Positions 22,855-35,818 of a stretch of 64,000 bases of DNA are shown here, piece after piece. This DNA is from Nostoc sp. RI_552. GTDB taxonomy: Bacteria; Cyanobacteriota; Cyanobacteriia; Cyanobacteriales; Nostocaceae. Below the pieces are notes generated by a model. It made no database searches and had not been told where the DNA came from. It saw nothing but the letters and a program-made list of their open reading frames with translations. The stretch lies in the NCBI GenBank assembly GCA_016124525.1, contig WGNO01000006.1, forward strand, positions 1-64,000, read 5' to 3'. Position 1 is the stretch's first letter, and each line of letters begins with the position of its first letter. The translations under genes and the position numbers were made by a program.

Positions 22855-24705
22855 TTAGTCAAAGAACTCTGCGCCTAGTTTTTCTACGGTGGATATTACT
22901 AAGGCTCTGTCTAGAAATTCGTTGCGGCGTTCGCAGGATGTTTCTGCAATGAGCAAGCATCCGTGACAAGCACAGCCGTGTAAAAAGCGTTCTTCTTCTT
23001 CGTTATCTGGTCGGTGTTGGGCGCATACTGGGTCGTTGGAGCATAATTTTCCTTGCTCTAGGGCTAGTTCTAGATGGTGTTCAATGCGTTTACCAACTTC
23101 TACTAGTCCGCCTAATGTTCCTTCTGATCCGGATGAGCCTGTGTATAATAGAATGCCGTAACCTGCGTTGCTGGCATAAATGCGTTCGCGGATGGAGCTA
23201 GCAGCGTAGCCACATTCTAGGGATACTGCCATAATTAGTAGGTGTGATAACGAATGGAGCATGGTATACTGAACTCCAGGGAATTTGATTTTTTGTTTTT
23301 CTTGGTCTATGCCTTTACGGGCACACCAAATGTCAAATCCTCTGGAAAGTTCTCTGGCGCGCTCTTTCACTGGGGGGCGATGAAACCAACGGTCAATTGC
23401 TTGTTGACGAAAGGCAATGAATATGCCTTCCCCTTTGTTTTCTATAGCTGGAACCCAGTTGTGTTGTGTGTCTAGGGCTGCTCGGCGGACGTTAATATCA
23501 AGTTCGCCGTCTATGTCTGGCATTTCGGCTTCAAAGCGGGTAAAGCCTACTTGAGCAATGACTTCTCGTAGGCGGTGGACTAAAACAATTCTTTCAATAC
23601 AAGCAGAAAATTTGGGCTGTAGGTGATCCAAGGTGCGTGATGTGGCATAAAAGTCGCTTTCTGGTATGTCTTCGCCAACTTCCACCGGGCTGGAAAGTAG
23701 TGTTTCAATTTCTACTTGCTTAATGCTTTTAAGTATTTTTACTTGCCCGCTTTGTCGCCGTTGCACTTCTTGCCAAACTGCTTCATTGCTGAATTTTTCC
23801 AGGGCTGCGGCTACTTTGTGTTTTTTGCGCTCTTTTTGAATTTCGCTGGTGCTTTCTGCATATTGGAGAAAGTCATCATACACTGCATTGACGGCTTGTT
23901 GTAAAGGTGCATCGGAGTCAGGAAGGGAAATTACGCTGAGATGTTGAGAAAAGTAAGCGTTGCTGGCTGACCTGACTAATAAACGATTGTATTCTGGTTC
24001 GCCGGTGGATTGACGAATACAGTAAGGTTCCTGGGAACCTGGGTCAGGTTTTAGCCAGGGGCGATGGCCTTGACATGGACCTAAAACTTTACCGTTGGGG
24101 ACTTTAGCATTGGCTAGGGGGCGGCGCTGTCCGCAACTTTCGCAACGGACGTAAATTTCAGCGAAATCATTACCAGAACCGGCTTCGTCTAACCACAGGG
24201 GACCTCTGCATTGTTTTTCTGTATTGGAATGTAGGAAGTAAATCCAATCAATATCGCTGATATGTCCGTTGACGCAGGCTTGGACAAAGCGGATGGGTAC
24301 AACCGGGACTTTCTTTCTGCGAGAATCGAGATATTGACCATTGGTTAAATTAGACCAGGGTATTAGGGGACGGGTGCGGTATGTTTTTTTGGTTTTGGTA
24401 TCTTCCCAGGTTTTTTTGACTTGGGCTAAAAACCAGGTGGGAAAGATGAAAACATCAATTCCTGTGGGGGTACCTTGAAAGTCTTGTTGGTCTATGGGGG
24501 GTGCATATAATTTGATTTCGGGAACTTGCAAAACCTCTGCAACTCTAGCTGCTAAACGTTCTTCGTGGATGAGTTTTTTTTCACCACGCCAATGACTTAA
24601 GCCACCAATTAAAACGGAATGTTTAGGTAAATCTACCATGGCACCTGGTCCAAAGGAAGAAAGCATTTGACTTTGGCGTAGTTGTCCGACTGGGGGATTA
24701 CTCAT
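22855..24705 (-). CDS. drmB: DISARM protein DrmB (DUF1998 domain)
   Basis: One of the core DISARM proteins; with DrmA it forms the complex that engages unmethylated or single-stranded-end phage DNA. The N-terminus is the family opening (GQLRQSQMLSSFGPGAMVDL). Mid-protein CxxC pairs (CESCGQRRP) and the C-terminal DUF1998 block (LHSLSHLLIMAVSLECGYAA, YTGSSGSEGTLGGL, then the cysteine-rich CSNDPVCAQH and CACHGCLLIAETSCERRN) suggest bound zinc. Length is 616 residues, as expected. The start is ATG 24705, with GAGGAA nine bases upstream, and overlaps the drmA stop by four bases, so the two are translationally coupled. It is the last gene of the operon; drmC, which often follows, is absent. Confidence 0.92.
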   Translation of the reverse strand: MSNPPVGQLRQSQMLSSFGPGAMVDLPKHSVLIGGLSHWRGEKKLIHEERLAARVAEVLQVPEIKLYAPPIDQQDFQGTPTGIDVFIFPTWFLAQVKKTWEDTKTKKTYRTRPLIPWSNLTNGQYLDSRRKKVPVVPIRFVQACVNGHISDIDWIYFLHSNTEKQCRGPLWLDEAGSGNDFAEIYVRCESCGQRRPLANAKVPNGKVLGPCQGHRPWLKPDPGSQEPYCIRQSTGEPEYNRLLVRSASNAYFSQHLSVISLPDSDAPLQQAVNAVYDDFLQYAESTSEIQKERKKHKVAAALEKFSNEAVWQEVQRRQSGQVKILKSIKQVEIETLLSSPVEVGEDIPESDFYATSRTLDHLQPKFSACIERIVLVHRLREVIAQVGFTRFEAEMPDIDGELDINVRRAALDTQHNWVPAIENKGEGIFIAFRQQAIDRWFHRPPVKERARELSRGFDIWCARKGIDQEKQKIKFPGVQYTMLHSLSHLLIMAVSLECGYAASSIRERIYASNAGYGILLYTGSSGSEGTLGGLVEVGKRIEHHLELALEQGKLCSNDPVCAQHRPDNEEEERFLHGCACHGCLLIAETSCERRNEFLDRALVISTVEKLGAEFFD

Positions 24706-27700
24706 GTTTGTGATTCCTCTATTTCTTGTCCGTGGAAATTAATTAACCGTAAATTAACCATTGGTTCTACGTCGCGCAAGCTACGCTGGGCTTTGAATCT
24801 TTTTTTGATTTCTGGGGGTTGGTTATCTAGCTCTGGGTCTAGGGGGTTGAATATCAGTGGTGGTGCTTCTCCCACTTCTCGTTGATATTGGAGGCGGTTT
24901 TTTTCATCAGCAGTACTGTTCCACAGGTCGAGCAATTCTTTTACTCGTGCTGCAACTTTTTGACGTGTTTGTTCAGAATCATTTTCTTGGTTTTTACACA
25001 ATTGTGCTCGTTGGGCTATGGTATCAATAACAAAATTTAATTCTTGGCGATATTTAGTAATATTGAAGGCGTGGGTGGGTGCTGTCATTCCTGGATGTCC
25101 CAGTCGGGCTAAAGCAACAGTAATGGCTGCAAGACCTCGGTCAATGGCCCGGGGTGAAAAAGGTGTGACGCTACTGGCTTCTACGTCTCGGTAGAATGTT
25201 GCGTGCCAAGCACAAAAGCGTTCATAATGGGAGCGATCGCGTGGACGATGAATGTTGAGTAAAGTAATTACTAATCCTGGTTTCTGGTCATCTCGTCCTA
25301 CACGACTGGTGGCTTGGATATATTCAGCGGCTGTTTTAGGTTGACCGAGAACTACCATTAAACCGAGGCGGGTAATATCCAAACCGACGGAAATCATGTT
25401 AGTGGCTAAGACAACATCGATTTTTTCTTGTTGGCTAAAGGTTAATTCCATGCGTCGTTTTGTGTTTGCAATTTGATTCGTGGTAATACGAGAGGTTAAT
25501 TCTTCTGGTTCGTCGTCTATTTCTCGGTCTGCAAATAAACCTGATGTTTCATTAACTCGCCGACGACGGCTATGGTAAGCAAGGCGAGATTTAACTTCGT
25601 CTTCAACAATTCGCCGACTACCACCAAGTTCCTGCAAGGAGTTAAAGTAGCCTAGTAAGGTCATGTAGGGGTCTGCTGGGTTTTCGGGATTTTTATTTCC
25701 TCCTAGATTTAACCATTGTTTTTGGGCTGCGCCTAATAATGCTAAATAAGTTCGTAGTAATACCACTTTAGCGCTGCGTCCTTGGGCTGCGATTCCTACA
25801 TAGGTGCGGCCGTTTTTTTCAGTGATGGGGACGGTTTTGGCAAAAAATGAGTCGCGTCTGTCTGGTCCTGGTGGGGGAAATATGCTGACTTCGTTACGTC
25901 CAAATAATGCTTGAATTTGTTTGTTGGCGCGGCGAACTGTGGCGGTGGAAGCGATTATTTTGGGAAGAATTTTGTGATTGTTTTTTTGTTGGGTGGATAA
26001 AGCATCTATGGCGGTTTCGTAGAGTCCGACCATTGTTCCTAGGGGGCCAGAAATTAAATGTAATTCGTCTTGAATAATTAAATCTGGTGGTGGTAAATGA
26101 TTCCCTAGAGGTTTCCCTTTGTTGAGTTGAGTAGGTCCATAGAAACCATCTTGATCGTGGCGGTCTACTTTTCCAAATAATGTACCTGTTTCTCCTACCC
26201 AAGGTAACATAGCAAATTTATCCACTGTGGAAATGATAAAGCAAGGCAAGCGGCGATATATGACTTCATCCACCGCTACTATTGGTAAAGAAGAATCTCC
26301 ATGAAAATCACAGCTGCGATTACAACAGGTTATTTCTAAATTAATTGGTCGCTGAGGAGTGGGTTTTAACTGAAAACAAATGGGTTTTAATTTTGTCCCA
26401 CACCAAGGACAATTTTCTATGGGGATGGGTGATGGTGCTTTGGTGGAGTTGTCGCGTTGAAAAGCAATGGTTCTTTCTCTAGCGCTGTTTTCGTTTCTTT
26501 CTCCTGCTTTACCCATGCGGTTAGGGGTGGCTTTTTCTCCTACCCATAGGCCAATTTCAAATGGCCAGGTTCCCAATTGCTGAGGATTTTTACGTCTTTC
26601 TAACTCTAGGGCGCAAATCATTGTGGCTCCTCGTCCTAATTGGTCGAGAGTTAACAACCGCAGTGTATAGCGCATTAAAACGCTTACTCCAGCTGATTTG
26701 ACTCCAGGATAACGGAGTCGGCGTAAAACTAGGGTAAAAGCAGCGATTCCTAAATAGGCTTCGGTTTTTCCACCGCCTGTGGGAAAAAACAATAAATCTA
26801 CTACAGGGCGATGGCTGCTTTCCCCTTGGGCTATTCCTACTAAGTTCATTAGCAAAAAGGCTAATTGAAAGAGTCGCCATTGAGGTGGTGCTACTGATGA
26901 AGGGGTGATGTTTTTGTTGTGGGTGTTACGTTGGCGAATGGCTGTGGCTATGGCTTTGTTGGCCATGGAAAAAGCAGTGAATATTTGGGGGTCTTGTAAT
27001 GCTAGGATACCTGCGTGGATTCGCTGGTTGGCGATTTGACAATTGCGGATAAGCAAATTAAAAGTTTCATCTTGTCCTGTGCTTTGTGTGGAAAACTCAC
27101 TGGTTTGTTGAGCAATCCACTGGTTATAAGCATCTACCAGGGGAAAAAGCATTTTTTGTAATGCTTGTGGAGTGGAAGCGTGGGCTAGGGCTTCCATGTT
27201 CAGTTCTACGTTATTAACTTGGGTGGGTATGACCTTTTCTACATCAGCTTTAGGTATCCATGCGGTGCTTACTTGTTGACAGTTACCGTTAGTGTCGGTA
27301 AGAGCAATAACAGAAACATTGTGACCTACAGCATATTCATAATCGTGACGGTATTGTAAATCAGCTACGTTTTCGTCCCAATCTTCGTTGTTACCACCTC
27401 GGAGATTAGGACGGGGTACTAATGGTTGGGGAGTGTGGATGGTTAAACAAGTTTGAAAGGTGTAGGTGGTATCTTTGTTGTTTTCTGGGGTAGAAAAGCG
27501 ATTATTAACCAAAAATACAGAAACGGAACCTGTACCAGGGGGTATTAAGTTATTATTACTGACGGGACGAAGGGAAACTACGAGCTGTAAGCCGTCGGTG
27601 TCTGGTATGGGAATTATTTTTGGTAATTGATTGTAGTTGGAAAATAATTCTGTTAAAGAAACAGGGATTTTTGCTTCACGGGGAATGCGTTTCCAGGAAC

Positions 27701-28181
27701 CTGATAAATTAACTGGCTTTTGGTGGTGGGTGTTGGGGGGTTGTTTATCTGAAGAAGTTGTTTCTTTTTCATTGAGGTGGTTTTCTGTTGGGGTGGGGTT
27801 GTGTTTTAGTTCTAAATAGTCACCCCATTGAATTGTGACATCAAGGAAATTAACATTTTCTTGCAAGAGAAAGCTTAACCCAATGGAGGAAGGAAAATAA
27901 GCTTTTTTTGCAAAGGTTTTTTCAGGAATATTTTCGTCTTCACTGCTAATTTTATCTGAAATGAGGTCTATGTCATCATCGCTACTATCATCACTGCGTT
28001 GTGATATGGGTACACCATGGGGGACTAAAAAACCTGTAAGATAGTACTTTGATGGTGGTTGGTCGAGAATTTCTTCAGCATAGTCTTGGTTTTGTGGTGT
28101 GGGTCCGATGAGGTCAAGCTCTAAAACTTCAATTAAATGCGATCGCACTTGTGGGGAGGTGGTATATTTTTCTTTGTTCAT
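24702..28181 (-). CDS. drmA: DISARM helicase DrmA
   Basis: A superfamily 2 helicase of 1159 residues, the DNA-translocating core of DISARM. Walker A is PTGGGKT (467-473), the DEXH box is DELH (705-708), and motif VI appears in the C-terminal RecA domain as QATSRVGRDDQ after ATNMISVGLDITRLGLMVVL. Between the motifs lies a zinc ribbon (CPWCGTKL ... CCNRSCDF). The N-terminal 400 residues are a less conserved domain. Its start is only 4 bases after the stop of the Y1 transposase-like gene, and its end overlaps drmB by 4 bases, so all three are presumably on one mRNA. No strong Shine-Dalgarno precedes ATG 28181, which fits coupling to the gene before it. Confidence 0.93.
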   Translation of the reverse strand: MNKEKYTTSPQVRSHLIEVLELDLIGPTPQNQDYAEEILDQPPSKYYLTGFLVPHGVPISQRSDDSSDDDIDLISDKISSEDENIPEKTFAKKAYFPSSIGLSFLLQENVNFLDVTIQWGDYLELKHNPTPTENHLNEKETTSSDKQPPNTHHQKPVNLSGSWKRIPREAKIPVSLTELFSNYNQLPKIIPIPDTDGLQLVVSLRPVSNNNLIPPGTGSVSVFLVNNRFSTPENNKDTTYTFQTCLTIHTPQPLVPRPNLRGGNNEDWDENVADLQYRHDYEYAVGHNVSVIALTDTNGNCQQVSTAWIPKADVEKVIPTQVNNVELNMEALAHASTPQALQKMLFPLVDAYNQWIAQQTSEFSTQSTGQDETFNLLIRNCQIANQRIHAGILALQDPQIFTAFSMANKAIATAIRQRNTHNKNITPSSVAPPQWRLFQLAFLLMNLVGIAQGESSHRPVVDLLFFPTGGGKTEAYLGIAAFTLVLRRLRYPGVKSAGVSVLMRYTLRLLTLDQLGRGATMICALELERRKNPQQLGTWPFEIGLWVGEKATPNRMGKAGERNENSARERTIAFQRDNSTKAPSPIPIENCPWCGTKLKPICFQLKPTPQRPINLEITCCNRSCDFHGDSSLPIVAVDEVIYRRLPCFIISTVDKFAMLPWVGETGTLFGKVDRHDQDGFYGPTQLNKGKPLGNHLPPPDLIIQDELHLISGPLGTMVGLYETAIDALSTQQKNNHKILPKIIASTATVRRANKQIQALFGRNEVSIFPPPGPDRRDSFFAKTVPITEKNGRTYVGIAAQGRSAKVVLLRTYLALLGAAQKQWLNLGGNKNPENPADPYMTLLGYFNSLQELGGSRRIVEDEVKSRLAYHSRRRRVNETSGLFADREIDDEPEELTSRITTNQIANTKRRMELTFSQQEKIDVVLATNMISVGLDITRLGLMVVLGQPKTAAEYIQATSRVGRDDQKPGLVITLLNIHRPRDRSHYERFCAWHATFYRDVEASSVTPFSPRAIDRGLAAITVALARLGHPGMTAPTHAFNITKYRQELNFVIDTIAQRAQLCKNQENDSEQTRQKVAARVKELLDLWNSTADEKNRLQYQREVGEAPPLIFNPLDPELDNQPPEIKKRFKAQRSLRDVEPMVNLRLINFHGQEIEESQT

Positions 28182-28185
28182 TGTC

Positions 28186-28599
28186 TTAATTAATGTTGGT
28201 TTTTTCTAATTCCACTTTGAGGGTGCCTTGTAGGTGGTGTTTTTTTTGATTTTTGACGTAACTTACGGTTTGTTCTAATTGTTTATAACTAAGGGAACAA
28301 ACACTATATCCTGAATCCCAAAAAAATTTGGTTGGGGTGAAAAAATTGTTTTCATAAAAATGACATGAACTGCTATATTTGATGTTTTCTATTAAATTAG
28401 CGATAGCGATGGTGGGGGGAATAGATATGACTAAATGAATATGGTCTTCCATTCCACCAATACCATGGATTATGCAATTAACTTCATTGGCTTTGCGAAT
28501 AATATAGTTATGAAGGATAAACTCCTGTTGAGGAACAATCAAAGGTAAATGTTGTTTAGTTCCCCAGACAATATGATAATAAAGTTGCCATAAGCACAT
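28186..28599 (-). CDS. Y1/HUH transposase-like protein (IS200 TnpA type) inside the DISARM operon
   Basis: 137 residues from ATG 28599 (the frame is open to TTG 28611). It is a complete single-domain Y1 nuclease: the HUH motif is His53-Ile-His55 in GGMEDHIHLVISIP and the nucleophile is Tyr114 in VSYVKNQKKHH, both intact. The N-terminal YYHIVWGTK is also typical of the family. After the YxKNQxxHH helix only about 15 residues remain, so the usual longer C-terminal tail of IS200 TnpA is missing. The gene lies 71 bases after the drmMI stop and 4 bases before drmA, in the operon direction. There is no tnpB, and no room for normal IS ends on the drmA side. Either it is a captured operon member or a trimmed insertion; I cannot decide. 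Confidence 0.88.
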   Translation of the reverse strand: MCLWQLYYHIVWGTKQHLPLIVPQQEFILHNYIIRKANEVNCIIHGIGGMEDHIHLVISIPPTIAIANLIENIKYSSSCHFYENNFFTPTKFFWDSGYSVCSLSYKQLEQTVSYVKNQKKHHLQGTLKVELEKTNIN

Positions 28600-28670
28600 A
28601 GGTTTTCTCAACTATTAATTACATTGGGAAGAAATGTTGGGAGTTAGGAATTCCTTGGGATTGATTGTTT

Positions 28671-31600
28671 TTATTTAGGGGGTGGAAATTTTCCACCTAA
28701 AATTTCTGCTTCGCTTTGTTGTTGGTTCAATTGAAGTAAACGAGCTAAAATTTCATCGCGAATTCCTTCGCCCCAACGATATCGCCAGGGTTTTTTCTTT
28801 TGTGGTTTTGTGTTATGTTCAACTTCTTCTTCTTCTTCATAATCAAGAAGAAAATCGCAATCAATGGAAATATCGCACCAACCATAAGCATTGAGCACTG
28901 CTTTATCCATTTCTTGATGAAGTTGGCGCAATTGCAATATTTCAGGACTCCATTCATCTGGGTCGTGGAAGCGGTTATATGTGGTTGTTAATCCTTGGTT
29001 GTGGCGAACCATCATAGCAGCGCGGTATTCATAATATTGTTTTCCCGCAGCTTCTAGGGTGGAGTTAATTTCCCAGTTTTCAGGGAAGGGGAAGGTTTCA
29101 AAGCAGTCTGAGGGAGTGTAACGAAGGTCATCTTTCATGGATGAACTGAAAAATCTAGCCCATGTTTCATGGATACGTGATTGAAGGATGCAAAATGCTG
29201 AGTAGGTGGGAAGTGCGAAAACAATTAAAGTATTTGCATATACCATTTTTGGTGGTAAGAATGTAAATGCTACATAAGCAGTTGCACCACAGCTAATAAC
29301 TAACACCCGTTCAAGAGGTGCGATGGCTTTTACTAAACCAGGTCTTTTTTCAACATATTGCCACCATTTGATACGATAAGCATCTCTTTTTTGCTTATCT
29401 CTTTCAGGCTTAACTTTTTCCTCAACAATGTGCATTAAATCAGGATATTCCCTAGCCTCCTCCTCAGTCATATCACCAAAATTGATGACATAGCGACGAT
29501 GTTCATGGGTGGGACTAGAATTAACTTCCTCACCACCAATATAAGGAAAAATCCGCTCTTGATTTTTAGAATCTTTTTCAATCAAACGGTGCATATCTGC
29601 AATGGGTGTTGCATCTAGATTATCATCATCGAAAGTAAAACCCATGCCTAAAACATAGCTACCAACAAAACTTTTATCAGCATTTGCTAACAAGGGAGGG
29701 GGGTTATCATGTTTACCAGATTTAAATAAAAACGCTGAAATAAAGGGAACTTCTTCACCATCTAGAATGGGTTGTAAACAAAGACTATTTTGCGAAGGAA
29801 CTACACCAGGATTTGCTCTTTGGGGATTTTGTTTAATAACATGAACTACGCTCACCACCACCGCAGCTAAACCAGGCCACTTTAACCGTCTTTGAGCATT
29901 GTAAATAATTCCTCCATGGTGACAGATATATGTTAAACCGGTGCTACGGGTGTCACCCTGGGCAATAGTATTAGTTGCGATTAAACCAAAACAACCTGAT
30001 TGGCGTAACAAACTAAAAGCGCGGCGAAAAAAATGAGCAGCTAAATCAGCATTACCATGACATTGCGGGTTGATAACTTTTAACCAATCTAAATAACCGG
30101 GAATATGAGCATTAATTAATGTATTTTTTCCTGCAAATGGTGGATTACCAACAATTACATCAAAACCGGGATTATTCCTATTAAAAATTTCAGGAAATTC
30201 TATTTCCCAATTAAAAACTGGTATGGGTTTATGGCTAAAACCCAGGTGTTCAAGAATTTGTTTGATTTCTAATTTTTTTTCTGGATAACTGCGCCAATGG
30301 TCTAGCTTTAACCGATAATTATTTAATTCGTCTTTTCTTTTTTTGTCTTTATCGTGAGCAAAAAAGGCTGCAACAACTAAATTACCTTGCAAGCGAATAT
30401 TTTCTAAATTAACTTCTATTTTTCTATAGATGTCTTGTTTGATTTGATAATTATCAATACCTAAACTATAAATTTCCCATCGGGATTTTTCTGTTTGATT
30501 TAAAGTTTGGTGAAACAAAGGAAGGTTAGAGTCGTTATAGGTAGTGTCTATATTCCAGTTAAAATTTTTAATTTGTTCTGATGTTAATCCGACTAAAGAA
30601 TCTCCCCACTTAAGAGCATGGTCTAGAAAGGTAAAAGCTTTGGTTTTGGCTAAAGTGACTAACCACAAAGATAGTTTAGCTAAGTTGACTGCAAAAGGGT
30701 TTTTGTCTACTCCATACAAACATTGTTGAGCTACAATGCGCTGGGCGTATAATAAAGGTTCTTCGTTGTGGGGAATGTGAACTAAGGTATTGTGCTGATT
30801 CCATGCTGTAACTAATTTCTCAGCTAATTGACGACAACTTTCTACCAAAAATGCTCCGGACCCCATTGCTATATCACAAATCTTTAAATCTAAAATTTGC
30901 TGTGGTGTGGGATTTTTTCCTAAAGCTGCTAAAACAGGTTTTAAAGTTTCTTTAACGATGGGTTCTGTTAATGCACGAGGGGTGTAGTGACTACCAGTGG
31001 TACGTCGTTCCTGTCCTGGTTGTAAATACAAACATCCACGGGGTATTAAGTTTGGTGTTTTTGGTGATATCTTCGGTGCTAGGGCTGCTAATATTTCTTG
31101 TTCTGTGTGGGCTGCTTTGAGGTCTGTTAAAATTTTCCCTGTGACCTCACAACCGGCTATGTTTTTTAAAAGTTTAGCTCGCTCTGGTGGTTTAGCTTGT
31201 ATGATGTCCTGGAGCTCAACAACAACGGTTACGGATGTTTTAGCTCCTTGGGGTTTACTCCAAAGTCCAATGGATGGATTTTTGGCTATTTCCACTTGGT
31301 AGCCCATGATGGCTTCGTACACTGAGCCAATGTGCTCCACATCTAAGGAACGATAGGATAAACGCTCTCCATCTAATATGAGTAATTTCTGCAATACTCT
31401 GTAAATTACTCCATCAGCAAGTCGTGGAGGCTCTATTGTTTGGTTTGGTTGATATTTGCTATTGAGTGGACGATTTTCTAAAAAAGGATATTCCTCTGGG
31501 TCAAATAATTGTCCGTGACGTGGTGGTAAAAATAACTCTCCATGACTAGCACCGTTGTAGACTAAGCGAAATAAACTCAGCAATGAAGACCAAGCGCCAT

Positions 31601-32600
31601 ACCTTTGGTCTATGGTGTCTGGATAATTACCTGCATCTGACCGTAAACGTTGATACAAACCAGTGACGGAATAATAATTTGCATACACCTTATCTTGAGA
31701 CATTAAGTCACGGTCTTCGGCGTAGAGCAAAAATACCAACCGCATTAAAACAGTAATTAGCCCGCCGTAAATATGTTGAGGTGCGGTGGTGGCTATTTCT
31801 GTGAGTAATAAGTTATTGGTGATAGCGTATGCTGTTTGAAAACCAAGCAATAATTCCCACAATGCTTCTAAAACTTGTTCGGATAATTGGGTAGAAACTT
31901 GGTTTTGATACTTGCGGCTTTTTTCTAAAATAGCAGGTAAACGGCGATGGCTGGGAACAATAAATAGTCGGTCAGCGGAAAGAAGCATGACCATTGCACC
32001 TAAAATTATCCGACCAGATACTTCAGTCATGGCTGTTACAGGAAAAGTCAGATGTCCTGAGGATTCTCCCGGTGGCGCATATACCAAGCGCAATTCTTTA
32101 CCATTACACAAAAGCCCTGTGTAGATTTTTGTTTCTTTTAACAATCGTTCAAACTTGGCTTGGGGAGAAAGTGTGCTATGGGAATAATTAGTTTTAGTAT
32201 CTTGGTTTTTGATTTTGTCAAAATTTATCCCTGGTTCTAACTCTTGAACCAACATCATCCACTGGCCATTTTCTTTAGGTACTGCATAGGTAGGAGTTAA
32301 TATTTCGTGATAGTCTGGCAGGGAGACAGTTAATTCTGTTGGACTTTCTACCAGGTCTTGGGGTTGCCAATCTAAAATATTAAGAGCGAAGGTGCGAAAA
32401 TCTTTGATGTAACAGCTATTGTCTTGTTGGTTGCTAGAATTTCTATAAACAATTGCTGCTAATTTTTGTTGCAATTCCACTGGGTTGCGGTTAATTACAA
32501 CTTGTGATTCTGATAATGCTATTGGATAAACTACCAAACCCACGGGCTGAAGAAAGCCAAGCCATTCTTTGTGTGATTTAATTTCTGAGTCTTTTATCAT
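28671..32600 (-). CDS. drmMI: class 1 DISARM adenine methyltransferase DrmMI
   Basis: A large N6-adenine DNA methyltransferase, 1309 residues, that marks host DNA so that DISARM spares it; this methylase defines class 1 DISARM. Motif I is DIAMGSGAF (576-584) and the catalytic motif IV is NPPF (819-822, in VIVGNPPFAGKN). The long regions on either side resemble the BREX/type IIL-like methylase-specificity architecture, with the C-terminal 400 residues probably carrying target recognition. A run of acidic residues (YEEEEEVEHN) precedes a basic tail. AAGGA lies eight bases before ATG 32600, and the gene starts 11 bases after drmD. A perfect palindrome overlaps its last codons. Confidence 0.92.
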   Translation of the reverse strand: MIKDSEIKSHKEWLGFLQPVGLVVYPIALSESQVVINRNPVELQQKLAAIVYRNSSNQQDNSCYIKDFRTFALNILDWQPQDLVESPTELTVSLPDYHEILTPTYAVPKENGQWMMLVQELEPGINFDKIKNQDTKTNYSHSTLSPQAKFERLLKETKIYTGLLCNGKELRLVYAPPGESSGHLTFPVTAMTEVSGRIILGAMVMLLSADRLFIVPSHRRLPAILEKSRKYQNQVSTQLSEQVLEALWELLLGFQTAYAITNNLLLTEIATTAPQHIYGGLITVLMRLVFLLYAEDRDLMSQDKVYANYYSVTGLYQRLRSDAGNYPDTIDQRYGAWSSLLSLFRLVYNGASHGELFLPPRHGQLFDPEEYPFLENRPLNSKYQPNQTIEPPRLADGVIYRVLQKLLILDGERLSYRSLDVEHIGSVYEAIMGYQVEIAKNPSIGLWSKPQGAKTSVTVVVELQDIIQAKPPERAKLLKNIAGCEVTGKILTDLKAAHTEQEILAALAPKISPKTPNLIPRGCLYLQPGQERRTTGSHYTPRALTEPIVKETLKPVLAALGKNPTPQQILDLKICDIAMGSGAFLVESCRQLAEKLVTAWNQHNTLVHIPHNEEPLLYAQRIVAQQCLYGVDKNPFAVNLAKLSLWLVTLAKTKAFTFLDHALKWGDSLVGLTSEQIKNFNWNIDTTYNDSNLPLFHQTLNQTEKSRWEIYSLGIDNYQIKQDIYRKIEVNLENIRLQGNLVVAAFFAHDKDKKRKDELNNYRLKLDHWRSYPEKKLEIKQILEHLGFSHKPIPVFNWEIEFPEIFNRNNPGFDVIVGNPPFAGKNTLINAHIPGYLDWLKVINPQCHGNADLAAHFFRRAFSLLRQSGCFGLIATNTIAQGDTRSTGLTYICHHGGIIYNAQRRLKWPGLAAVVVSVVHVIKQNPQRANPGVVPSQNSLCLQPILDGEEVPFISAFLFKSGKHDNPPPLLANADKSFVGSYVLGMGFTFDDDNLDATPIADMHRLIEKDSKNQERIFPYIGGEEVNSSPTHEHRRYVINFGDMTEEEAREYPDLMHIVEEKVKPERDKQKRDAYRIKWWQYVEKRPGLVKAIAPLERVLVISCGATAYVAFTFLPPKMVYANTLIVFALPTYSAFCILQSRIHETWARFFSSSMKDDLRYTPSDCFETFPFPENWEINSTLEAAGKQYYEYRAAMMVRHNQGLTTTYNRFHDPDEWSPEILQLRQLHQEMDKAVLNAYGWCDISIDCDFLLDYEEEEEVEHNTKPQKKKPWRYRWGEGIRDEILARLLQLNQQQSEAEILGGKFPPPK
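28681..28697. other. perfect 17-bp palindrome at the drmMI 3' end
   Basis: GGTGGAAA-T-TTTCCACC, fully self-complementary around one base, lies within the last codons of drmMI (Gly-Gly-Lys-Phe-Pro-Pro). It may form a stem that stabilises the drmMI part of the mRNA or partly stops transcription before the transposase-like gene and drmA. Confidence 0.5.
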
Positions 32601-32611
32601 TGCTTTTTTCC

Positions 32612-35600
32612 TTAACCAGAAATTGGATATAAGTAAGTCAAACCCACTGGTTCAACTCGAGTGGCTTTAACTTTGTAAGCAGATTCAATGCGAGCTGGCT
32701 CGGAGGTCATTTCTGTAGCAATGGTTTCCAGGCGTTTTTCCCAATGGCGACGGTCTGCTTCTTGTTGGCGCTTTTCTTCTAATAACGACAATTGCAGTAC
32801 TTGAGATTCTTGCTGACATTTCAAGATTTGCTGTTGTTGTTGCTGGAGAATTTTTTTCATTTCTCCTGCTTCTTTTAAGCCTCGTTGGGTTAGCTTTTTT
32901 TCAGCATTTTGTTTTAATATCTGAGCTTGGTGTTGTAGGTGAGGAATTAATTCTGCTATGTCTTGGGGGGCGCTGTTTTGCAATCTTTGTTTGACTCCTG
33001 GGGGAATGGGTGGGGATTGGGGAGAAGCTATGGAACTTTCTAATAGGTCTAGTACTTTGTCTTTTTCTGTTTGTTTTAAGATTTGAAGCCTTTTTTTTCC
33101 TGGACTGGGGTTGTCAGTCCAGGAAGCTGCTATGGCTATAATTTCATCGTGAAGACGGGAGGCTCCTTCTCCATACAAAGCTAATCTTCCTAAAGCGATG
33201 ACTTTGGGTACAGGGTCGTCGGTGAAACAAATACAAGCACGGGTTAATTCGTTGTGCAAAAATCCTTGTGCTAAAAATCTGCTTAATAACCGTTGAACAA
33301 GTCTATGTTCTAGGTGCAAATGCACCACCTCACTGTCTAAAGTTCCTAGGTCACGAAATACCACAGGACGAGGGGGGGTTTGTTTGCGCCATTCCCAGGG
33401 TTTTTGTCCGATTTTACGCGGTGTTCTCAGGCTGTCTAGGGTGGTGGCCCAGGTGGGGTCTGCTCCGGTGTGTTGGTCTAGGGGAGGAATTAACCAACGA
33501 GCGGTGAGGGGGTTCTTAGCGACTTCGTTGATGTCTAGGGGTTTAAGGGAGGAAACTCCCAATATTTCTAGGGCGGCGGAGATGGCTTCTCGGAAGTGCA
33601 GGTCGTTGAGTTTTAACCAATCTCGGGCGTTTTTCAACATTAGTTGTAGATGCTGGATTTGTTGGCTCAATTGTTGTTGGCGCAATCTTCCTTGTTCTAG
33701 TTCTAGGTTGATTGTTTGTTTGTTGTGGCTGTTTTGGTGGTGTTGTTCTATGTTGTTGATGGAATGGGTTAGGTGGTTTATTTGGTGGTGATGAATACCG
33801 TTGGCGAGTAAATAAGAAACATTTTTTTGTACCACTGGTGCTAAACTACCTAGTTCTTGTTGAATGGTTGTGGTTTTTTTCACTAAGATGTCTAACACTT
33901 TGTCCTCTGCTCGTTGGGGAAAAATAAAGTAATAGCAGTTGACAATGGGACATCGCTGTAATTTGCGGTCTATTCGGCCGTTGCGCTGTTCCATGCGGGA
34001 GGGATTCCAGGGAATATCAAAGTGAAATAAATCAGCACAGTAATTTTGCAGGTTTACTCCTTCCCGTGCTGCATCTGTGGCAATTAAAATCCGTAGGGGA
34101 TGACGGGCCGGGTCGCTGTTAAATGCAGCTTTAATGGCTTCTTGACGTTCTTCTCCCATACCACCGTGAAAAGTCTCTATTCGTTGGTTTGCACGGTTGG
34201 AGTGGGCGATGGCAGCTTGGAGTTGCTGGTGTAGATAAGTTTTAGTATCTGTATATTCTGTAAAAATAATCACTCGCCTATTTAACCAGGCTGCGTCGGT
34301 TTGACCTAGTTCTGGGCAGAGGTGTGTACGAATCCATGCTACTAATCTTTTAATACGAAGGTCTGGCTCATGGCGATAACGATTAGCTATGTTTGTCATG
34401 GTGGTCAAAATTGCTAATTCCTCGGGGGTTGGCTGGCAGTTTTGCTGAGAAGCAAGTATCATTTGAGTCTCTTCTTCTTTTTCTACTTCTTCTTCGGGTA
34501 GGTCTGCTCGTTCGTCATCGGCTCCGGGGGTTTCTATTAATAAAGAAAGATGGGTTTGTTCTGTGGAAACTGAGGGGGTGGTTTGTTTTTCTATGGCACT
34601 TTGATGTACTTTTAAGGTGCGGGCAAAGGCTTCTATGGATGACAAAAGACGCTTTTGCAGAGAAGTAATGATTAATATTGCGTTGGTTTGGGCTGATTTG
34701 GTTGCGTTTTTAAGTCTGGCTTCACGTAGGTGGCGATATTGTTGGAGCCATTGGGATAATTGTATTTCCGGGGCGTTGTCTGGGAGATTGTCAATGATGA
34801 TGGGGGTTACATGACGTTGGGGAAATTCTTCTCCTATATCTCGCAAGTCTTGTTTTAATCGCCGCACCATTACTGTATCTAGAAGTTTAAGGTCTCTGAC
34901 GGGTACTCCTCGACAAAAACGCTGGGGGTCAAGAATTTCTAGTAGGGCTGCAAAGCTGTTGGAGTGTCCGTTGTGGGGGGTGGCGGATAGGAATAGTTTG
35001 TGTTCAAAGCGCCTGGCTAGTTCCCGCACTGTTTTGGTTAGTTGAGAGTCAACAGCATATTTGGCTCCACTAGCGGGGGCTGCGTGGTGGGCTTCGTCGA
35101 GGATGAACATGGCTTTGGGACAAAAATCACCCAGCCAATCTCGTAATGGTGCTGCATAGGTTTCCTCTCGCAGTAAAGTGTGGGAAATGATGAACCGGGT
35201 GTGTGTTGTCCAAGGGTTAATTCCATATCCCCGTTCTTGACGGCGGGCTATAATGAATTCACGGTTAAGAATGACAAATGTCAATCCAAAGCGATTTTCC
35301 ATTTCTTCTAGCCATTGCCTTGTTACTCCCGCAGGACAGGAGATTACTACTCGTTTGACTTTTTGGCGCATTAACATTTCCCGCAGTATTAGCCCTGCTT
35401 CGATGGTTTTGCCTAAACCCACGTCATCGGCAATGAATAAATTAACCCGGGGCATTAATAATGCTTTCCGTAGGGGTTCTAGTTGGTAGGCTTTGACTTC
35501 TATTCCGGCTCGATAGGGAGCTTGAAATAATGTGGCATCTGTGGAAGTTACGCAATTCCAACGTAATGTGTGCAAGTAGGCGGAGAATAAATGGGGGTCA

Positions 35601-35818
35601 TCAAAACCTCGGTGGGCAATTGTGTTCCATGAAGTTCTTTCTACAATTTTTGCGTCTATTTCTTTTTCCCAGAGAATTTCTAGTGGTTCTCCTAGGGCAT
35701 CATCTTCCAAGCAGGAAAGACTTACTTTGGTATCTTGTCCTGGGGATGGTGGATTGACAACTTCCTCTACAAGATACTGCCGTGTTCTCACCTGCACTAT
35801 TTGTCCGGTTTCAATCAT
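32612..35818 (-). CDS. drmD: DISARM SNF2-family helicase DrmD
   Basis: The class 1-specific SNF2-like helicase, 1068 residues and first gene of the operon. Walker A is GLGKT (134-138, in DDVGLGKTIEAG), the Walker B box is DEAH (241-244, in LDEAHHAAPASG), motif III is LSATPHNGHSNSF, and the C-terminal RecA lobe has FTEYTDTK, ATDAAREGVNLQ and WNPSRMEQRNGRIDR. The rest of the protein has long Gln-rich coiled coils (about 690-760 and 990-1040). Together with DrmMI it makes this a class 1 system. The ATG at 35818 has no strong Shine-Dalgarno. Regulation is unknown; a 14-bp stem-loop lies 84 bases upstream. Confidence 0.93.
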   Translation of the reverse strand: MIETGQIVQVRTRQYLVEEVVNPPSPGQDTKVSLSCLEDDALGEPLEILWEKEIDAKIVERTSWNTIAHRGFDDPHLFSAYLHTLRWNCVTSTDATLFQAPYRAGIEVKAYQLEPLRKALLMPRVNLFIADDVGLGKTIEAGLILREMLMRQKVKRVVISCPAGVTRQWLEEMENRFGLTFVILNREFIIARRQERGYGINPWTTHTRFIISHTLLREETYAAPLRDWLGDFCPKAMFILDEAHHAAPASGAKYAVDSQLTKTVRELARRFEHKLFLSATPHNGHSNSFAALLEILDPQRFCRGVPVRDLKLLDTVMVRRLKQDLRDIGEEFPQRHVTPIIIDNLPDNAPEIQLSQWLQQYRHLREARLKNATKSAQTNAILIITSLQKRLLSSIEAFARTLKVHQSAIEKQTTPSVSTEQTHLSLLIETPGADDERADLPEEEVEKEEETQMILASQQNCQPTPEELAILTTMTNIANRYRHEPDLRIKRLVAWIRTHLCPELGQTDAAWLNRRVIIFTEYTDTKTYLHQQLQAAIAHSNRANQRIETFHGGMGEERQEAIKAAFNSDPARHPLRILIATDAAREGVNLQNYCADLFHFDIPWNPSRMEQRNGRIDRKLQRCPIVNCYYFIFPQRAEDKVLDILVKKTTTIQQELGSLAPVVQKNVSYLLANGIHHHQINHLTHSINNIEQHHQNSHNKQTINLELEQGRLRQQQLSQQIQHLQLMLKNARDWLKLNDLHFREAISAALEILGVSSLKPLDINEVAKNPLTARWLIPPLDQHTGADPTWATTLDSLRTPRKIGQKPWEWRKQTPPRPVVFRDLGTLDSEVVHLHLEHRLVQRLLSRFLAQGFLHNELTRACICFTDDPVPKVIALGRLALYGEGASRLHDEIIAIAASWTDNPSPGKKRLQILKQTEKDKVLDLLESSIASPQSPPIPPGVKQRLQNSAPQDIAELIPHLQHQAQILKQNAEKKLTQRGLKEAGEMKKILQQQQQQILKCQQESQVLQLSLLEEKRQQEADRRHWEKRLETIATEMTSEPARIESAYKVKATRVEPVGLTYLYPISG

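Follow-up and report, generated by a model that had tools for sequence, protein, structure and literature searches.

A TnpA-Y1 endonuclease gene in a Nostoc DISARM operon looks like a conserved passenger of a variable cargo slot

The window, that is, the whole stretch of 64,000 nucleotides of Nostoc sp. RI_552 analyzed here, contains a class 1 DISARM operon with a gene for a Y1/HUH transposase-like protein inserted between two of its core genes. The features of the locus, with the tools used for their assignment, are as follows.

22855–24705, minus strand: drmB, without drmC after it (PADLOC, NCBIfam)
24702–28181, minus strand: drmA, DISARM helicase of the DrmAS type (PADLOC, NCBIfam)
28182–28185, minus strand: 4-bp gap from the Y1 stop to the drmA start, without a REP-like palindrome
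28186–28599, minus strand: intact Y1/HUH transposase-like gene, assigned to TnpA-Y1 subclass 1.2, 137 aa (Pfam, NCBIfam, fold model)
28600–28670, minus strand: 71-bp gap from the drmMI stop to the Y1 start
28671–32600, minus strand: drmMI, class 1 DISARM adenine methylase with a truncated C-terminal tail (PADLOC, NCBIfam)
28681–28697, strandless: 17-nt perfect palindrome GGTGGAAAATTTCCACC within the 3'-terminal codons of drmMI
32612–35818, minus strand: drmD, SNF2-like helicase (PADLOC, NCBIfam)

The Y1 gene is co-directional with drmD-drmMI-drmA-drmB. The initial annotation had described a complete Y1/HUH gene in this orientation within a DISARM operon, separated by 71 bp from drmMI upstream and by 4 bp from drmA downstream, and this layout was confirmed by the 137-codon reading frame, its Y1_Tnp match, and the PADLOC and NCBIfam matches of the Drm genes. 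The DrmD, DrmA and DrmB reading frames were full length, as was that of DrmMI except for its trimmed tail, and for drmA, spaced 4 bp from Y1, a separate ribosome site was not obvious. Like class 1 DISARM (drmD-drmMI-drmA-drmB-drmC), the window has the four core genes, intact and ordered, but it carries the additional Y1 gene between drmMI and drmA and lacks drmC. The latter had also been stated earlier, and indeed no drmC was found after drmB, a position occupied in most relatives by a gene of ~265 aa.

The Y1 protein matched Y1_Tnp in Pfam (E = 2.9e-23) and the IS200/IS605 transposase in NCBIfam, and the top matches of its AlphaFold model (pLDDT 85.6) were the TnpA proteins of IS608 and ISDra2. 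The catalytic residues His53, His55 and Tyr114 are intact, as first reported; in an alignment with IS608 TnpA, the HIH motif and Tyr114 correspond to its HUH motif and Tyr127. The C-terminal tail had been called shorter than in IS200 TnpA, which is true but modest, with 23 residues remaining past Tyr114. Subclass 1.2 is a low-copy TnpA-Y1 group of Cyanobacteria and Bacteroidetes (Quentin et al. 2018, PMC6006769), characterized by the motifs Y---Q--HH, DH[IV]H and W-Q and generally devoid of IS200 terminal structures and shared IS properties (PMC6006769). Since the window protein has the DHIH (residues 52–55) and Y---Q--HH signature (YVKNQKKHH, residues 114–122), a length of ~140 aa, a low copy number and a cyanobacterial host, it was placed in subclass 1.2 as a single-strand HUH endonuclease with predicted nicking activity. 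W-Q is listed in the table of PMC6006769 as a consensus motif, with no stated requirement for the subclass; the window protein reads W94-D95 where 65/65 others have Q, and despite this its tree position is inside the subclass 1.2 group. It also shares with the subclass the lack of IS200-type ends, and differs in its short C-terminus and in its site in a defense operon. A further difference from the published description is that relatives bear double-hairpin flanks, which PMC6006769 lists as absent.

The copy count proposed with the initial annotation returned no identical or near-identical Y1 copy elsewhere in the source genome by protein search. The sole other relative found by this search was 45% identical and carried a stop, leaving one intact and one broken copy, and an ordinary multi-copy IS was rejected on these grounds. 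Across the source genome (G000), the Y1_Tnp model of Pfam matched 31 times, nearly always to short or stop-containing pieces, indicating extensive transposase decay; the DISARM Y1 copy is among the few intact ones. With IS200/IS605 TnpA (IS608, ISDra2) the window protein has the fold, the HUH motif and the catalytic Tyr in common, but it lacks both multiple near-identical copies and subterminal hairpins: none were present at the two ends of the gene, where flank folds did not exceed those of shuffles. The earlier statement that IS ends are missing thus held and extends to REP-like ends, none of which appeared in the repeat count. These missing ends had been taken to imply capture by DISARM, an argument that loses force because their absence is recorded for subclass 1.2 at large (PMC6006769). 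RAYT/TnpA-REP genes (REPtrons) resemble the family in being single-copy Y1 genes adjoining palindromic repeats, and the RAYT structure 4er8 was a fold-model match, at rank 30. Membership of RAYT class 2 was nevertheless rejected: the window Y motif is YxxNQ..HH where class 2 has YI..NP, and the NCBIfam REP_Tyr_transpos score of 20.8 lies far under the cut-off of 80. In addition, the GTAG tag was not seen in the double-hairpin repeat consensus, and flanking REP palindromes are absent at the window copy, whereas REP-like units occur at 58/76 genes of the group.

Next, we mapped 45 DISARM loci of the window's DrmA type, window included, in 193 Nostocaceae genomes. A Y1 gene was present upstream of drmA in 10/45 loci, in all cases co-directional with the operon, which bears out the recurrence at this position that had been proposed for checking. 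By a rough random-placement estimate ~0.007 such cases would be expected. As Y1 relatives recur in the slot of nine other Nostocaceae loci, the arrangement is not due to chance. Nine of the ten genes lie between drmMI and drmA, and in the tenth locus (L091) the short sequence left up to the contig start gave no drmMI. Only one of the ten, in L090, is frameshifted. A DISARM component would be expected to be consistently present, but the gene occurs in 10/45 loci, and operons that are otherwise near-identical differ in whether they have it. The suspected correlation with drmC loss did not materialize, with full-length drmC in 5/10 loci with Y1 vs 23/34 without (p = 0.46). Sampling of DrmA-positive genomes from other families of the order turned up no subclass 1.2 Y1 in the drmMI-drmA slot. 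In a divergent DISARM (L209 in G329; DrmA 37% and DrmMI 33% identical to the window), a co-directional subclass 1.2 Y1 gene lies upstream of the methylase gene, at a distance of 487 bp. The one same-genus genome in the collection (L107 in G016; DrmA 66%) has drmD, drmA and drmB and no Y1 in the slot; drmMI was not found there by tblastn and a PIN-type gene fills the interval. Plasmid relatives were limited to distant matches. In L088 (12504–18327), drmD is split, with ~3.6 kb of other DNA inside and its middle part missing.

The drmMI-drmA interval is a variable cargo slot, or hotspot, in Nostocaceae DISARM. It exceeded 600 bp in 27/40 loci, compared with 8/38 for drmD-drmMI and 1/44 for drmA-drmB, and it may also be empty (156–268 bp). 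Apart from Y1, its cargo comprises PIN toxins, a HigB-type toxin with an HTH/IrrE-type protein, PemK/MazF, AAA_15 ATPases, DUF4351 proteins, and proteins of 379–480 aa that had no Pfam match in those tested. The initial annotation had seen the gene as sitting in the usual slot of an operon member, a reading at odds with the unrelated genes in the same interval of other loci. The slot ORFs of 379–480 aa in L089, L103, L106 and L118 are alike, starting with 'SLI..E.RRVIVGK...YGIF..CYSQ'; the L089 protein is one of those with no Pfam match. In five closely related loci (L108, L109, L110, L112 and L113), the slot carries a conserved pair, possibly a nested defense module: an AAA_15 ATPase of the OLD-like kind, 352 aa long, and a protein of 288 aa that matches DUF4435 weakly. 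The L105 slot contains a duplicated drmA 5' fragment (codons 8–66) at about −2026 to −1838 from drmA; an HTH antitoxin gene and Y1 lie downstream of it, and it looks as though this slot had grown through a duplication event.

On the DrmA tree, Y1 must have been gained or lost at least seven times. Related operons precisely lacking the gene had been named beforehand as evidence against a captured DISARM nuclease, and among relatives of the window such a pair is provided by L086 and the near-identical L128: a 1,358-bp segment at L086 slot positions 284–1641, comprising tandem palindromes, Y1 and a right palindrome, is missing from L128, and the right junction is sharp, at a palindrome. Similarly, L090 and L127 have 1,083 bp in common at 96%, followed by Y1 in L090 and HigBA in L127.

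The DISARM Y1 genes cluster on the family tree, with 2 to 3 label changes compared with ~9 in shuffles, and fall into one branch that also holds a few non-DISARM copies beside housekeeping genes. The backbone of the Y1 tree is poorly resolved; on it, a single clade of all ten DISARM copies, as in a single arrival, was marginally rejected (AU p 0.046), and a clade of eight of them with the Nodularia copy L135 was allowed (AU p 0.28). In eight loci Y1 identity roughly follows DrmA identity. L086 and L092 have a clearly different Y1, with 66% identity vs ~94% for DrmA, which argues for a separate arrival and against their being vertical sisters of the L087/L088 copies, although the AU test did not reject that grouping (p 0.13). 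At least two arrivals of Y1 in DISARM are likely from these comparisons. Relocation is visible: L132 and L131/L133/L134 have a homologous Y1 segment in different surroundings, ~90% identical from about −100 bp to 0–4 bp past the stop. The 4 bp available on the drmA side had been taken to speak against an ordinary IS200 insertion, but here the homology of a relocated close relative ends within that very distance, so this spacing leaves room for a mobile origin.

In most relatives the Y1 gene is bordered by a double-hairpin unit, of consensus AGTCGGYTNNARCCGACTTNNGCTATNAGACNGGGAATTNNATTCCCTGGC and sequence form AGTCGGYTNNARCCGACTTNNGCTATNAGACAGGGAATTNNATTCCCTGGC. Both stems showed compensated pair changes (for example, hairpin 1, GC 49 / CG 15 and CG 34 / TA 30; hairpin 2, AT 47 / TA 18), and single-strand folds of the flanks of five relatives had z values of −3.0 to −5.5. 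Within 700 bp of 76 Y1 genes the unit density was 1.47 per kb vs 0.049 per kb elsewhere, the background being the rest of the fetched DNA. This ~30-fold enrichment close to Y1 genes is partly circular, as some of the counted flanks had served to derive the pattern by eye; whole-genome searches are less so, and in G101, G026 and G114 they placed most or all close copies of the unit at the DISARM locus. At least one unit was found at 58/76 Y1 genes and at 9/10 DISARM Y1 genes, and none at the window copy.

The window gene is accordingly the sole DISARM Y1 copy without ends; it lacks the double-hairpin repeats as well as the upstream ATGGGMAA...TAAATGTA block of its relatives. Window DrmMI ends with GGKFPPPK; in relatives a K-rich tail of ~25–35 aa follows, and because this tail is missing the drmMI-Y1 junction appears to have been trimmed. 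The initial annotation had seen no hairpin on the drmMI side, which needs qualifying in that a 17-nt palindrome does exist there, but the fold of this stretch is unremarkable (z −1.2). The palindrome may be a scar of the junction deletion. Of the 51 columns with a conservation of 95% or more, nine are altered in the window protein (R5Q, R17H, F69L, G75Y, N82Y, Q95D, G99S, G104S and A111T), the most of any full-length copy. The dN/dS comparison that had been called for was run with a codon model and gave omega ~0.10 for the window branch, which does not exceed background; the value is approximate owing to the long window branch, saturated synonymous changes and incomplete optimizer convergence. 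With omega = 1 rejected for this branch (2 delta lnL ~56), the codon pattern indicates purifying selection on the window Y1. Window DrmA likewise sits on a long branch, so the divergence is lineage-wide, and gene-specific acceleration was not favored.

Taken together, the Y1 gene in the window operon looks like a conserved passenger. The reading we prefer, with a probability of roughly 0.7, is that of a REP-like Y1 cassette resident in the DISARM cargo slot, immobilized here and still functional. The Nostocaceae subclass 1.2 family would move as a cassette with REP-like double-hairpin flanks, and one of its branches repeatedly takes the drmMI-drmA slot of class 1 DISARM operons. Deletions in the lineage of the window would have taken the flanking hairpins, trimmed the drmMI tail and left the gene packed in the operon, where it is probably immobile as a cassette and yet kept by purifying selection, probably co-transcribed, and putatively coupled in translation to drmA. 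Its predicted activity is the nicking of single-stranded hairpin substrates by Tyr114, held by the HUH metal site; it may act in trans on remaining repeats or on other hairpins. The retained nicking would be selected for the gene's own subclass 1.2 function, and an obligate DISARM role is presumably absent. Two observations count against this passenger reading, as a long-term partner of DISARM would equally fit the frequent return to one slot, always in forward orientation, and the rough tracking between Y1 and DrmA identities at eight loci.

Such a partner, a domesticated accessory nuclease that works with DrmAB and is kept for that work, is in our view unlikely, although it would account for the co-directional recurrence upstream of drmA in 10/45 loci, for the purifying selection, for the window alone among DISARM copies having lost its ends, and for the similar placement of Y1 upstream of the divergent DISARM of L209. 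It is also biochemically plausible because DrmAB needs a 5' single-stranded overhang (PMC9142583); Y1 might, for example, create or trim single-stranded 5' ends of phage DNA for DrmAB loading. On the other hand, Y1 is missing from most related DISARM loci, from near-identical operons, and from the slot in the sampled DrmA-positive genomes of other families; one copy is frameshifted, relatives beside housekeeping genes are equally constrained, and Y1 has no link to drmC. A slightly less probable variant is that a hairpin-specific HUH transposase, now repeat-free, was recruited as a DISARM nuclease for single-stranded DNA ends, with a specificity changed through the nine altered conserved residues. 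Were Y1 to act with DrmAB, it would to our knowledge be the first HUH nuclease in DISARM.

We also regard it as unlikely that the gene is an ordinary transposase stranded in the operon, its frame open only since a stop would uncouple the translation of drmA 4 bp downstream. The short spacing, the lack of an obvious drmA ribosome site, the record number of altered conserved columns and the broken state of most of the genome's other Y1 relatives are all in line with this, but coupling preserves a frame and not amino acids, whereas omega is ~0.1 and the HUH motif, the Tyr and most invariant residues are kept; the long DrmA branch, moreover, makes the divergence lineage-wide. Least probable by far is an intact mobile element with unusual, gene-overlapping ends that can still transpose from the window locus: a right end overlapping the gene could explain why the L132 homology stops 0–4 bp past the stop codon, but the window has lost the conserved upstream block and all repeats, and its genome has no second near-identical copy.

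The ingredients of the passenger reading are singly known; in the open-access literature searched we found no double-hairpin repeat tied to subclass 1.2, no recurrent cargo slot in DISARM and no Y1 genes in DISARM. If recruitment by DISARM were true, the drmMI-drmA slot would be a swap site at which the system gains alternative effector nucleases. Under the preferred passenger reading, a multi-gene anti-phage operon has a repeatable cargo slot in which a Y1 endonuclease takes turns with toxin-antitoxin pairs and ATPases, and a little-known HUH subclass recorded without terminal structures gains a specific double-hairpin repeat as its candidate substrate.
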